A program made the position numbers and the translations under genes. A stretch of DNA of 64,000 nucleotides, taken from assembly GCA_019359395.1 (NCBI GenBank), contig JAHHHK010000029.1:1-64000 (forward strand), in the 5' to 3' direction. Origin of the DNA: Komarekiella atlantica HA4396-MV6. Lineage in GTDB: Bacteria; Cyanobacteriota; Cyanobacteriia; Cyanobacteriales; Nostocaceae. The notes below the pieces were generated by a model. It did no database searches and had not been told where the DNA came from. It saw only the letters and a program-made list of their open reading frames with translations. Positions 31,015-41,908 of the stretch are shown here, piece by piece; position 1 is the stretch's first letter; the number at the start of each line of letters is the position of its first letter.

Positions 31015-31710
31015 ATGACTAACAAAAACGATTACCAAAGCTATAATCGCGAAGTTCAACAGGATTCATATAAAGACGCTAACGGACATATTCACACTAA
31101 CGTTAAAAAAACAGAAGAAACTATTAACAATGTTCCTGTCGGGTCTAACTCTAATTCCTACAGGAATGGTTATGTTGACGCTCAAGAAAATTTAGCGGCT
31201 CGTGATAATAGTAATGCTGCTAGTGGGTTGTTAGTTGGCTTGCTTCTCGCTTCGCTAGTAGGTTTAGTTGGTGGTGTTCTTTTCTTTCTAAATCAACGTA
31301 ATGACACTCCAGCCCCAGTTACATCTCCAATAGTGGTTCCTCAAAGACCAGAAGCTAAACAACCTCCTGAAAAAGAAACCACTATTATCGAAAAAACTAG
31401 GGATGTGCTTGTTCCAGTTCCACAACAGCAAGCACCAGCACCTCAACCCCCAGCAGCGCCTCCTCAGCAAGACATTAATATTTCTATTCCCAATCCTGCG
31501 CCAACACCAGTTAATCAGCAACCAGCACCTTCAATACCTGAAGCTCCTAAACAGTCTGAAAGCCAGAGTAATAGTACTTCCACTCAAGAAAAAAACAACA
31601 ATACTAGCATCTCCACTCCTGCTCAAAATAAATCAAATCAAACTGACACATTATCCGGTAGCAGTTCAGAGAGCACTGGCACTAAGAGTACAGAAAATTC
31701 CGCTCAATAA
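31015..31710 (+). CDS. hypothetical single-pass membrane protein with Pro/Gln-rich tail
   Basis: 231 aa. Residues 1-65 are polar (YQSYNREVQQDSYKDANG, HIHTNVKK). One hydrophobic helix, GLLVGLLLASLVGLVGGVLFFL, spans about residues 70-92. The remaining 140 residues are low-complexity Pro/Gln and Ser/Thr/Asn, with several PAP and QQ runs. The proline-rich part is probably outside the cell membrane, like a spacer through the wall. I do not recognise a family. A strong terminator follows at 31752. Confidence 0.65.
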   Translation: MTNKNDYQSYNREVQQDSYKDANGHIHTNVKKTEETINNVPVGSNSNSYRNGYVDAQENLAARDNSNAASGLLVGLLLASLVGLVGGVLFFLNQRNDTPAPVTSPIVVPQRPEAKQPPEKETTIIEKTRDVLVPVPQQQAPAPQPPAAPPQQDINISIPNPAPTPVNQQPAPSIPEAPKQSESQSNSTSTQEKNNNTSISTPAQNKSNQTDTLSGSSSESTGTKSTENSAQ

Positions 31711-32100: not shown

Positions 32101-32526
32101 ATGACCAGTAATCCAGGTGGTATTTCACAATCCAACACAGGTCAAATGTCTGGCGGAATGCAGGCAGCTATCGGCAACAATAGTCAGCAGAATATGCAAG
32201 CTCAGACAGTACCAGCTGAAAAAACACTTTCCCAAGAAGACGTACTCAGGCTGCTAGGCGAAATTCAGCAGATTCTTCAAGGGTCTACTTTACCCGAAGA
32301 TGTTAAGCAAAAAGCCAGCAATCGATTAGGAGCCGCAGTTGATGAGGTTCAGCAGAAAGAGCCTGATAAGCAATTGGCTGCGGGGAACCTGAAACGGATG
32401 ACAGAAACTCTTGAAGATGCAAGTAAAACTTTAAATGCAGGCCAAGGACTTGTAGAAAAAGTCCAACCTATTTTAGGGCAACTGCTGGGTTGGTTAAATG
32501 TTGCAAAATCTTTCTTTGGACTTTAA
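32101..32526 (+). CDS. small helical protein with GMQAAIGN motif (gene 1 of pair)
   Basis: 141 aa. The N-terminal 40 residues are polar and contain SGGMQAAIGNNSQQNMQAQ. The rest is predicted helical: LSQEDVLRLLGEIQQILQGSTLPEDVKQKASNRLGAAVDEVQQKEPDKQLAAGNLKRMTETLEDASKTL, ending VQPILGQLLGWLNVAKSFFGL. From memory, similar helical tails occur on cyanobacterial signalling and pentapeptide proteins; I could not verify this. The next gene begins 12 bp later and shares the GMQAAIGN segment, so the two probably work together. No enzyme motif is present. Confidence 0.75.
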   Translation: MTSNPGGISQSNTGQMSGGMQAAIGNNSQQNMQAQTVPAEKTLSQEDVLRLLGEIQQILQGSTLPEDVKQKASNRLGAAVDEVQQKEPDKQLAAGNLKRMTETLEDASKTLNAGQGLVEKVQPILGQLLGWLNVAKSFFGL

Positions 32527-32538
32527 CAGAGTGAGCTT

Positions 32539-33852
32539 GTGAGCCAATTGCCATCGTCTGACTCTAATAATTCACCACCAAAATCTGAGCCTAGTATCCA
32601 GCAAAATGCTGAAGATTCAACGGTAGACAGCGGAATGCAGGCTGCTATTGGCAATGATAATAATCAGAATCAAACACATAGCAGTTCAAGTGGAAACATT
32701 GTCAACGTTCACCTTGGCTTAAATCCTCATATAAAAGCACCAATTCAAGACAGATTACCACCATTGCGGATGTCTCGCAGAGCTTTTATCCCTACGGCTA
32801 TTGGGACATCGATGGGACTAACTGCTGGTTGGTTTGCTAGTAAAAATCAGCCACGTATTACTTGGAAAATGGTTAGCCGTTTGGGTGAAGATACCAAGAA
32901 CTTGATACTTTGGAAAGCTCCAGGAATGATCCGCGATCGCATCAAGGTTATGACAGATGGTAACTTTACTATTGACCTAGTTAGCACTGGAGATACAGAA
33001 GAAATACTTAAAGATGTTAGCGATGGAAAGATAGAATGTGGCTACAGTGGAGTTTACTATAACAGTGAAAGATTCAGAGTTTTATTTTTTGGTTGCGCCA
33101 TTCCTTTTGGTCTAAACCCTCAAGAACAAAATGCTTGGCTTTATTACAAAGATAAGCCTGACGATGAATTGACTTTTATGCAAAAAATCTATCCAAGATT
33201 GGGTTTAAACGTGATTCCTTTTCCAGCAGGAGCTACAGGGGCACAAATGGGAGGATGGTTTAACAAAGAAATCAACTCAATAGAAGATTTCAATGCCATA
33301 ACCATGCGGATTCCTGGATTAGGAGGAGATGTGTTACAAGAATTGCGTGTCAAAACAGAGAAAAACTTAGGTTTCAGCATTGCGATTAATCAAATTGCAG
33401 ATAAAGTCAGAGACGAAACACTTGATGCTGCTGAGTGGATTGGGCCATATGATGATTTTCAATTGGGACTACATAATGTATTTAAATATTACTACTATCC
33501 AGGTTGGTGGGAACCAGGTACGACCTATGATATACAGGTTAATACAGATGCCTGGAAAGACTTACCGGAAAAATATCAAGAAATATTTAAGGCCGTTTGC
33601 CTTGAAACTCATATAAGAATATTAGCTGAATACGATCAGAAAAATAGTGAAAAATTACAAGAACTAAAGTCACTGGGCATTAAACTAAAACCATTTAAGA
33701 AGGAAATTTTGATAAGAGCTAAAGAAGAAACAGATAAACTATTGAAATACTATGCTGAAAAAGATCCATTATTTGGAGAAGTTTATAAGGAATGGTTAAC
33801 GTTTAAAGATGGTATAAAAAAATGGTCGAATTTAAATAGAGAGTATTTATAG
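32539..33852 (+). CDS. TRAP-type solute-binding protein with GMQAAIGN head (gene 2 of pair)
   Basis: 437 aa starting with GTG. Residues 1-75 are a polar head with SGMQAAIGNDNNQNQ. Then comes MSRRAFIPTAIGTSMGLTAGW, a twin-arginine-like segment placed internally. From about residue 105 the body is a DctP-type fold: ITWKMVSRLGEDTKN, FPAGATGAQMGGWFNKEINSIEDF, GPYDDFQLGLHNVFKYYYYPGWWEPGTTYDIQVN. TRAP binding proteins usually feed organic acids to DctQM permeases. No permease gene is present in this window. A 75-residue head before the export signal is unusual and may keep the protein in the cytoplasm side or on the membrane. Confidence 0.8.
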   Translation: MSQLPSSDSNNSPPKSEPSIQQNAEDSTVDSGMQAAIGNDNNQNQTHSSSSGNIVNVHLGLNPHIKAPIQDRLPPLRMSRRAFIPTAIGTSMGLTAGWFASKNQPRITWKMVSRLGEDTKNLILWKAPGMIRDRIKVMTDGNFTIDLVSTGDTEEILKDVSDGKIECGYSGVYYNSERFRVLFFGCAIPFGLNPQEQNAWLYYKDKPDDELTFMQKIYPRLGLNVIPFPAGATGAQMGGWFNKEINSIEDFNAITMRIPGLGGDVLQELRVKTEKNLGFSIAINQIADKVRDETLDAAEWIGPYDDFQLGLHNVFKYYYYPGWWEPGTTYDIQVNTDAWKDLPEKYQEIFKAVCLETHIRILAEYDQKNSEKLQELKSLGIKLKPFKKEILIRAKEETDKLLKYYAEKDPLFGEVYKEWLTFKDGIKKWSNLNREYL

Positions 33853-41151: not shown

Positions 41152-41470
41152 TAATACCAATTAAAAAAACAATGTGACAGATAGACCATGTAGAGACGTT
41201 GCATTGCAACGTCTCTACCAGAGGATTTGTTGCAATCATTACATGACTTACGCACAGGTAACGGAAAATCGTAGACGCGGAGCGGCTTGCCGCAGCGAAG
41301 CCAGTGCGTTGGGCGGGTTCCCCGACTTGAAGCAACTGGCGCGACACAGAGGGCACGGTGAAACAGCGCTGCGGGAGGGTTTCCCTCCGCAGGCGACTGT
41401 AAACCCGAAGGGAGAAATAAGAGTTTCAGAGAGTTTTTGCGTAAGTCCTACATTAATTGAATCGGTATAA
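41152..41470. mobile_element. GAGACGTTGC miniature element, interrupted by a second element
   Basis: The outer element starts AATACCAATTAAAA (41153) and its core palindrome is 41190-41218. Its right end, CATTAATTGAATCGGTATAA, is at 41451-41470. An uninterrupted relative at 50092-50212 has these parts joined. The two halves are split by the 209-bp insert 41242-41450. The terminal TATACCAA/TTGGTATA-like ends resemble inverted repeats of a MITE. Confidence 0.75.
41242..41450. mobile_element. 209-bp MITE-like insert with GACTTACGCA terminal repeats and 5-bp target duplication
   Basis: Left end CATGACTTACGCACAG; right end, reverse-complemented, TAGGACTTACGCAAA. CATTA stands on both sides (41237-41241 and 41451-41455), and removing one copy plus the insert restores the outer element. 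The interior is GC-rich repeat DNA with no intact transposase, so movement would need an enzyme encoded elsewhere. Confidence 0.75.
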
Positions 41471-41558
41471 AATCCGGTTTGGAAAGTTCTGAGCAAAGCG
41501 TAAAATTGCAAATTCAAAATTGAATGAGCAGAGGAGTGGGAGATCAGCGGCTCGTTCA

Positions 41559-41825
41559 CGAATATCAAACACTCGTCCGCGAATATCAAACACTCGTCCA
41601 CGAATATCAAACACTCGTCCACGAATATCAAACACTCGTCCACGAATATCAAACACTCGTCCACGAATATCAAACACTCGTCTGCGAATATCAAAGACTC
41701 GTCCGCGAATATCAAAGACTCGTCCGCGAATATCAAAGACTCGTCCGCGAATATCAAACACTCGTCCGCGAATATCAAACACTCGTCCGCGAATATCAAA
41801 CACTCGTCCGCGAATATCAAAGACT
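41559..41825. repeat. 21-bp minisatellite, 13 copies
   Basis: Thirteen head-to-tail units of CGAATATCAAACACTCGTCCR (20 bases shown; 21-bp period) starting every 21 bp from 41559 to 41811, the last one incomplete. Units differ at only a few positions (AAACA/AAAGA, CCACG/CCGCG). Because 21 is a multiple of three and the unit has few stops, five of six frames are open through it. One frame gives a 121-codon product of HEYQTLV heptads; there is no good ribosome site, so I do not call a gene. Confidence 0.9.
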
Positions 41826-41908
41826 AAACTTATGGCAGAATATTAAAGCTTTTTCCTTAAATCTCACCTCAGTAGAGCAAAATCGATAAATACGAGGTTG
41901 AGTTATTG

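Follow-up and report, generated by a model that had tools for sequence, protein, structure and literature searches.

A head-matched gene pair of Komarekiella atlantica with a TRAP-type protein that is probably a receptor outside transport

Why do a small helical protein and a TRAP-type solute-binding protein, encoded side by side on the plus strand with a gap of 12 bp, begin with nearly the same short polar segment? The question is raised by genes 1 and 2 of a 64,000-nucleotide stretch of Komarekiella atlantica HA4396-MV6 (contig JAHHHK010000029.1, positions 1 to 64,000; the window in what follows). A first-pass annotation of this DNA had described the common segment, here called the head, and had read it as a recognition tag, with the binding protein used for sensing rather than import; its coordinates and quoted heads for the two adjacent genes were exact. 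The features of the pair are as follows.

32101-32526, plus strand: gene 1 (ORF1, P0001), ATG start, 141 amino acids; head and four-helix bundle protein
32149-32199, plus strand: gene 1 head, residues 17-33, SGGMQAAIGNNSQQNMQ; common to gene 2; pLDDT (the AlphaFold2 confidence score) below 50 at residues 1-40
32230-32523, plus strand: predicted four-helix bundle, residues 44-141, last helix moderately hydrophobic; from AlphaFold2 prediction and bundle alignment
32539-33852, plus strand: gene 2 (ORF2, P0002), GTG start, 437 amino acids; headed orphan DctP
32629-32676, plus strand: gene 2 head, residues 31-46, SGMQAAIGNDNNQNQT; common to gene 1
32767-32850, plus strand: twin-arginine segment, residues 77-104, RMSRRAFIPTAIGTSMGLTAGWFASKNQ; lipobox cysteine absent; proposed to be an uncleaved anchor
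32851-33849, plus strand: DctP-type domain, residues 105-437; PF03480; predicted outside the cytoplasm

Matching heads in the pair and its relatives

The motif GMQAAIGN stands near the N-terminus of both proteins, the head sequences being SGGMQAAIGNNSQQN in gene 1 and SGMQAAIGNDNNQN in gene 2. Local alignment of the two gave a score of 57, which was reached in 1 of 20,000 shuffles of the N-terminus of open reading frame (ORF) 2. The back-translated motif was found at 12 sites in the 7.78-Mb genome when up to one mismatch was allowed, and none of the 10 sites outside genes 1 and 2 encoded the head (one of them was IQAAIGH within an open frame of 388 residues). Genes 1 and 2 were the only matches in the whole genome to the degenerate pattern G-M-Q-[A/G]-[A/V/T/I/M]-x-G-[N/D/E/K]. 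On the shuffling score and these genome-wide searches a chance match of the heads was rejected, and to the extent that the tried patterns can tell, the pair seems self-contained within its own genome.

Seven genomes, our own included, contained an intact pair, and both heads were retained in all of them, that of gene 2 slightly altered in two (L099, L100). Among the carriers of the pair are Komarekiella delphini-convector and Nostoc sp. MG11. Amino-acid changes are selected against more strongly in the heads than in the sequence beside them. By simple counts over seven genomes, the ratio of amino-acid-changing to silent polymorphism (pN/pS) in gene 1 was 0.08 for the head, compared with 0.24 and 0.46 for its flanks and 0.13 for the bundle; in gene 2 it was 0.24 for the head, 0.37 and 0.45 for the linkers on either side, and 0.28 for the DctP domain. 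In related records (L047:6001-7058 and L109) the pair is broken, with a different end to gene 1 and a DctP frame without head and anchor.

Head matching was then scored across 112 loci (L043-L091, L099-L101, L175-L234), a few regions of which were included twice (e.g. L074/L232, L045/L101, and L048/L100). A partner was defined as a same-strand downstream neighbour of at least 100 amino acids within 130 bp. Among the 110 bundle ORFs, 66 had such a partner (46 of these were standalone) and 44 had none. After pairs alike in both heads had been dropped, 44 non-redundant pairs were left (29 standalone, 15 fused), and the bundle-side head of each was locally aligned with the partner N-terminus. Cognate heads scored 64.0 on average and swapped heads 36.1, a difference reached in 0 of 20,000 permutations (highest permutation mean 46.1); the standalone pairs alone and the fused pairs alone each likewise gave 0 of 20,000. 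The score exceeded 41, the 99th percentile of bundle-gene heads against 255 unrelated N-termini, in 39 of the 44 pairs, and fell below it in L047, L071, L188, L207, and L216. Classes assigned by regular expressions (GMQ, GQAGRD, QGDNN, GQAIAAG, and others) agreed in 33 of 44 pairs. The 11 misses comprised broken or mis-started loci (L047, L203, and L207), a probable non-partner with a response-regulator-like start (L071), and several heads that appear to match on inspection yet slip through the patterns; alignment scores were for that reason preferred. At the level of sequence, head matching is thus a rule of this family, and the proposal that the head serves as a recognition tag is strengthened by it.

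The check suggested in the first-pass annotation, whether the head recurs before unrelated proteins in paired genes, came out in its favour: GMQ-class heads precede DctP, nSTAND1, NACHT, and NB-ARC proteins. A Pfam scan covered 30 of the 44 non-redundant partners. NACHT was found in L050, L056 (two genes), L058, L064, L070, L077, L180, L185, L202, and L224; nSTAND1, with or without WD40, in L060, L085, L207, and L212; NB-ARC in L197 and iSTAND in L193. Other partners carried FGE-sulfatase (L066, L189, and L203), TRADD-like_N (L073 and L075), PIN-TPR-GreABC (L183), TPR (L052 and L055), or SH3 domains (L204). Weak NTPase matches only were obtained for L191 and L226, and three scanned partners (L205, L215, and L219) had no Pfam match. 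The partner in L191 (751-5433, plus strand) is a 1560-residue protein with the head GMQAAIGDGNFQIQ and a partial match to PADLOC Avs4. On these sequence comparisons the window pair represents one form of a conflict-type gene pair that is widespread.

Gene 1 itself had no Pfam match above the curated cut-off and no NCBIfam match, and the Pfam scan found no TRADD-N or Death-like domain in it. AlphaFold2, given a shallow alignment of 7 close sequences, predicted a disordered stretch at residues 1-40 and a four-helix bundle at residues 45-138 (helices 45-61, 66-84, 90-113, and 118-138; block means 63-89). In 17 of the 18 bundle relatives that form the rows of our profile A1 the most hydrophobic 17 residues were those of the last helix (0.85-1.79); in L072 they lay elsewhere. 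A Foldseek search of the predicted bundle against the PDB gave no match at E≤0.001, and the best match of profile A1 to PDB sequences, a proteasome subunit at E 0.0044, was taken as chance. Relatives were found in 36 of 243 genomes of the order with gene 1 as a single query (E≤0.001) and in 107 of 211 genomes of the family with profile A1 (E≤1e-6), own genome included in both counts. The profile also matched in 35 of 339 genomes of the phylum; 12 of these matches, all in small genomes, weak (2.6e-8 to 9.9e-7), and in frames of about 500 amino acids, are probably due to chance. Elsewhere the bundle is fused to CHAT (L052, L083, and L215), TIR (L071, also matched by PADLOC ThsB), pentapeptide repeats (L049, L059, L066, and L074), LRR-Roc-COR (L062), or DUF4062 (L070), and in these fused forms a head-like stretch usually precedes it.

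Two neighbouring observations were made in the window. A proline/glutamine-rich protein with one hydrophobic stretch is encoded upstream of the pair (31015-31710); such a gene is also upstream in L043, L044, and L047, and because a different gene takes its place in L045, L046, and L048 it was not counted as part of the pair. At 41248-41889 short tandem repeats are open on both strands (IFADECL and VHEYQTL units).

A headed DctP clade without DctM in the stretches examined

What kind of protein is gene 2? Its match to PF03480 (DctP) has an E value of 5.2e-35 over residues 132-408, and a twin arginine stands at residues 80-81 behind about 75 polar residues, so that the order of head, internal twin-arginine segment, and DctP fold is as first described. 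Among solved relatives 7ug8, 'Ketoacid-binding protein', ranked first (E 2.5e-67), ahead of 4yzz, 4yic, and 2hzk. Fifteen columns of a presumed ligand site were picked from the alignment with solved relatives and from work on TakP. Fourteen of the 15 are invariant in all 18 headed DctPs described below, and the remaining one shows a change from Phe to His in two rows. From the TakP work, these residues presumably contact 2-oxo acids and a metal. On the likeness to the 7ug8 and TakP type and the conserved site columns, a 2-oxo acid is our first guess for the ligand, with even chances of being right.

The search with gene 2 covered 217 family genomes and 243 order genomes, and 47 loci were kept (L095-L141); L109, L114, L127, and L129 were then dropped for want of a recognisable mature-domain start. 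The proteins fell into two groups, ordinary DctPs of about 370 amino acids, mostly 40-45% identical, and headed DctPs with longer frames, separated by a score cut of 330 that was chosen after the gap had been seen. A lipobox was present in 25 of 25 ordinary and 0 of 18 headed DctPs, and no cysteine followed the last basic pair in any of the 18. The twin arginine, by comparison, was found in 24 of 25 ordinary and 18 of 18 headed proteins (sought in the 60 residues before the domain in the latter). The lipobox has thus been lost from the headed proteins, and the twin arginine and the ligand-site residues have been kept. In a tree of 44 rows all 18 headed DctPs lay on one side of a branch with support 100/100.

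The N-terminal modules of this clade have been exchanged. All seven intact loci of the window type (L095-L101) have the GMQ head and a bundle gene 12 bp upstream. In the 11 other headed loci (L102-L108, L110, L125, L126, and L128) a helical domain of about 120 residues, partial in L104, takes the place of the GMQ head; a bundle gene was directly upstream in 0 of these 11 and was absent from the 9-14 kb stretches of the nine examined. Since the GMQ-headed clade (7 rows, 100/99) is nested within the helical-domain set (fork 96/92), the most simple reading is that the GMQ head replaced the helical domain. The helical N-domain is rare, being found in 3 of 118 family genomes with a single sequence, always on DctP, and in 8 of 243 order genomes with a profile. 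Outside DctP it occurs in L252:3521-5326 (plus strand), followed by a plain hydrophobic stretch, PBP_like_2, and a C-terminal hydrophobic stretch. A third module precedes DctP in L259:1464-3692 (plus strand), a protein of 742 amino acids with an N-terminal Ser/Thr kinase (Pkinase, E 1e-31), a twin-arginine segment without lipobox, and DctP (E 3.8e-38), which is possibly a transmembrane receptor kinase whose outer domain is of the TRAP type. In L114 the twin arginine is preceded by an additional hydrophobic stretch at the N-terminus. When L259 and L114 were added to the tree, the split of all headed proteins received 92/86 and L259 fell on a long branch beside the ordinary group; conversion to a receptor may for that reason have happened more than once. 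Head, helical domain, and kinase make three cytoplasmic-type modules before DctP, an arrangement that is hard to explain by transport. A separate pair was seen in L253 (4949-5341 and 5383-7854, plus strand), with an apparent shared head of its own (GRNYxET...); its second gene encodes NACHT and a signal-peptidase-like domain, and the pair is directly preceded by a short gene for a helical N-domain.

The first-pass annotation had also noted that DctQM permease genes were missing. For DctM this stands, as comparison of the window with the DctM of the same genome gave nothing at E≤1e-5; DctQ was not searched. Nor did relatives show a constant linkage: DctM was present in 0 of 28 headed-DctP stretches (21 distinct loci, the 64 kb window included, flanks of about 1.5-6 kb), compared with 9 of the 26 stretches around ordinary DctPs, whose flanks measured about 1.5 kb. 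One ordinary TRAP system is encoded elsewhere in the genome, on a different contig (DctM C50:25339-26604, DctP C50:23297-24145). On the absence of DctM from all 28 headed stretches, together with the separate clade, a decayed TRAP operon was rejected. The view that gene 2 serves sensing rather than import gains from the lost lipobox, the retained ligand-site residues, and the fusion of kinase, anchor, and DctP. Gene 2 has lost its transporter and is now probably a membrane receptor. The pair is a real and conserved variant, a head-matched pair of conflict type in which a TRAP-type receptor detached from transport would serve as the sensor.

A proposed two-part receptor and its rivals

How might the two proteins work together? 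We propose, at about even odds, that they form a two-part receptor system in which a membrane-anchored 2-oxo-acid receptor signals to the bundle protein by head-to-head assembly. Gene 2 would encode a TRAP-type solute-binding protein that left its transporter, and its twin-arginine signal, lacking a lipoprotein site, would act as an uncleaved anchor. It is likely that this places the DctP domain outside the cytoplasm and the head inside. Binding or loss of a small 2-oxo acid or related carboxylate would change or cluster the receptors, whose heads would assemble in the cytoplasm with the matching head of gene 1; that the two proteins are coupled head to head is the part of the scheme we hold most firmly, and the matching of heads makes it quite probable. 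The assembly could be a RHIM-like cross-beta stack, to which we give slightly less than an even chance. It would gather four-helix bundles, and these would act at the membrane through their hydrophobic last helix or recruit another protein. Cell death or dormancy would be the likeliest programme, given the fusions of this bundle with CHAT and TIR found elsewhere, although as an output it is only tentatively assigned. Stated most boldly, the pair would be a ligand-gated, prion-like transmembrane receptor, in which a TRAP-type outer domain on an uncleaved twin-arginine translocation (Tat) anchor seeds a RHIM-like stack on a bundle partner, and it would be one of a wider set of cyanobacterial receptors that combine transporter binding domains with interchangeable cytoplasmic modules (head, helical adaptor, and kinase). 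This full version we regard as doubtful.

The direction in which the receptor faces could be otherwise. A cytoplasmic sensor, in which the twin-arginine segment is a relic and the DctP domain reads an internal 2-oxo acid while the heads still assemble, would suit the weak hydrophobicity of that segment and the partner N-termini, which on inspection by eye mostly lack an export signal; 2-oxo acids are, moreover, internal signals. We consider it unlikely, as the twin arginine is retained in all 18 headed proteins, and in L259 and L252 a twin-arginine segment or plain hydrophobic stretch lies between the cytoplasmic module and the binding domain. Gene 2 might also still serve transport by feeding the C50 TRAP permease, the head merely tethering or localising it with gene 1. 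The genome does encode one DctM, and the headed DctPs do retain their ligand-site residues. However, the C50 contig has its own lipoprotein-type DctP beside DctM, the headed DctPs form a clade of their own in which N-terminal modules have been swapped, and a kinase is fused to another DctP, so that an orphan transport receptor seems very unlikely.

Other alternatives concern the head. It could be a tag read by a third protein (an adaptor, protease, or chaperone) and not a self-assembling motif, as might be expected of a segment that is short, polar, and predicted to be disordered. Matching at the level of classes is what one reader per class would give, and in some relatives three consecutive genes are headed (L056). 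No third headed gene was found in the genome by the tried patterns, a search that a headless reader would escape, and we judge this explanation decidedly unlikely. Lastly, the heads might match by common ancestry only and be functionless spacers; they are low-complexity, rich in glutamine, asparagine, and glycine, and alike within a class across many loci. Yet they evolve more slowly than the flanking linkers, matched heads precede unrelated domains, and in the lineage of the window the head stands where another domain is otherwise found and is accompanied by the bundle gene. A mere spacer is therefore extremely improbable.

The two-part receptor also has to be weighed against several results of our own. 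The cognate partner was the top of its row in only 11 of 44 pairs because several loci have the same head class, so that specificity, if any, would lie at class level, and common descent of paired heads could give part of the matching. Beyond the twin arginine of gene 2 the best 17-residue mean hydropathy was 1.02, which is weak and may not anchor the protein, and an AxA follows the segment in two of 18 headed proteins (L100 and L126), where cleavage is possible. The AlphaFold2 model of gene 2 had a pLDDT of 32, and the tree tool flagged long branches (L128, L110, L126, and L111). That the DctP domain resembles binders of 2-oxo acids is no proof of its ligand. Searches with gene 1 and profile A1 found no second bundle gene in the genome, and for that reason no separate CHAT or TIR effector of the bundle kind is at hand there. 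The RHIM tetrad pattern was present in only 6 of 44 bundle-side and 4 of 44 partner-side heads; the N-termini of long ORFs, a control that includes long partner and fused ORFs, had it in 12 of 362 cases. Finally, the likeness of the window heads to a published BASS3 peptide was within chance (P = 0.20 and 0.25). This BASS3 RHIM-like peptide is described in PMC8086366 as aggregating in vitro. By shuffling, 12 of 90 heads resembled it at P<0.05 and 5 of 90 at P<0.01, where about 4.5 and 0.9 would be expected, and the four best scores were those of partner-side GMQ heads (L191, L216, L207, and L212). The amyloid likeness is therefore suggestive for the head class, and not for the window pair itself.

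Bacterial NLR-type systems with common tags are believed to detect invaders within the cell. In the proposed two-part receptor a nutrient-type receptor, probably facing outward, stands in the position of the NLR. The tag logic of those systems may therefore couple the chemistry outside the cell to a module for death or dormancy in multicellular bacteria. The pair also suggests that TRAP receptors can take on receptor roles apart from transport. The matched head pairs also provide a testable pool for how signalling motifs hold specificity.

Comparison with known systems

The literature searched contained no description of the DctP-partner variant of a head-matched pair. The nearest defence annotation is PADLOC PDC-M14B, a candidate defence protein whose models match the bundle part of 6 of 8 bundle proteins scanned (gene 1, L052, L066, L071, L077, and L085). 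The match to gene 1 (E 1.3e-8, residues 25-128) covers only positions 158-262 of 267, and L083 and L086 were unmatched; gene 2 had no PADLOC match, and the name 'PDC-M14' occurred in no paper of the literature searched. The conflict systems of Kaur et al. 2020 and 2021 (PMC7159879, PMC8195603), in the portions consulted, have effector-associated domains, TRADD-N, FGS, and iSTAND, and their partner repertoire overlaps with ours. Among them the EACC1 system joins transmembrane helices with a periplasmic-binding-protein domain (PMC7159879). Those portions of the two papers, followed through the terms RHIM, amyloid, and DctP, held no description of the bundle, the heads, or DctP.

With TRAP receptors of the DctP type (PF03480; TakP/2hzl, 7ug8 type) gene 2 has the domain family, the ligand-site residues, and the twin arginine in common. 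It differs in being headed, in belonging to a separate clade, and in having neither a lipobox nor, in the examined stretches, a DctM. RHIM signalling (RIPK1/RIPK3), as outlined in the relevant part of PMC7889193, offers the idea of heterotypic assembly through short motifs; the window heads, unlike those motifs, have only partial sequence likeness, and cross-beta structure is a proposal here.

On the best reading, by analogy, the favoured two-part receptor would resemble the working of NLR amyloid signalosomes. In the sections of PMC7889193 and PMC8086366 that describe them, these systems of actinobacteria and cyanobacteria have adjacent genes with a short common motif and an alpha-helical partner with a hydrophobic helix. 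The window pair differs in two respects: its motif is N-terminal in both proteins, whereas known effectors have it C-terminally and the NLR N-terminally, and its receptor is DctP and not an NLR. The likeness lies in the adjacent genes with one common motif and in a helical partner with a hydrophobic helix, as in NLR amyloid signalosomes and BASS, and it extends to the relatives of the pair, in which the other partner is of the NLR type (NACHT, NB-ARC, or STAND).

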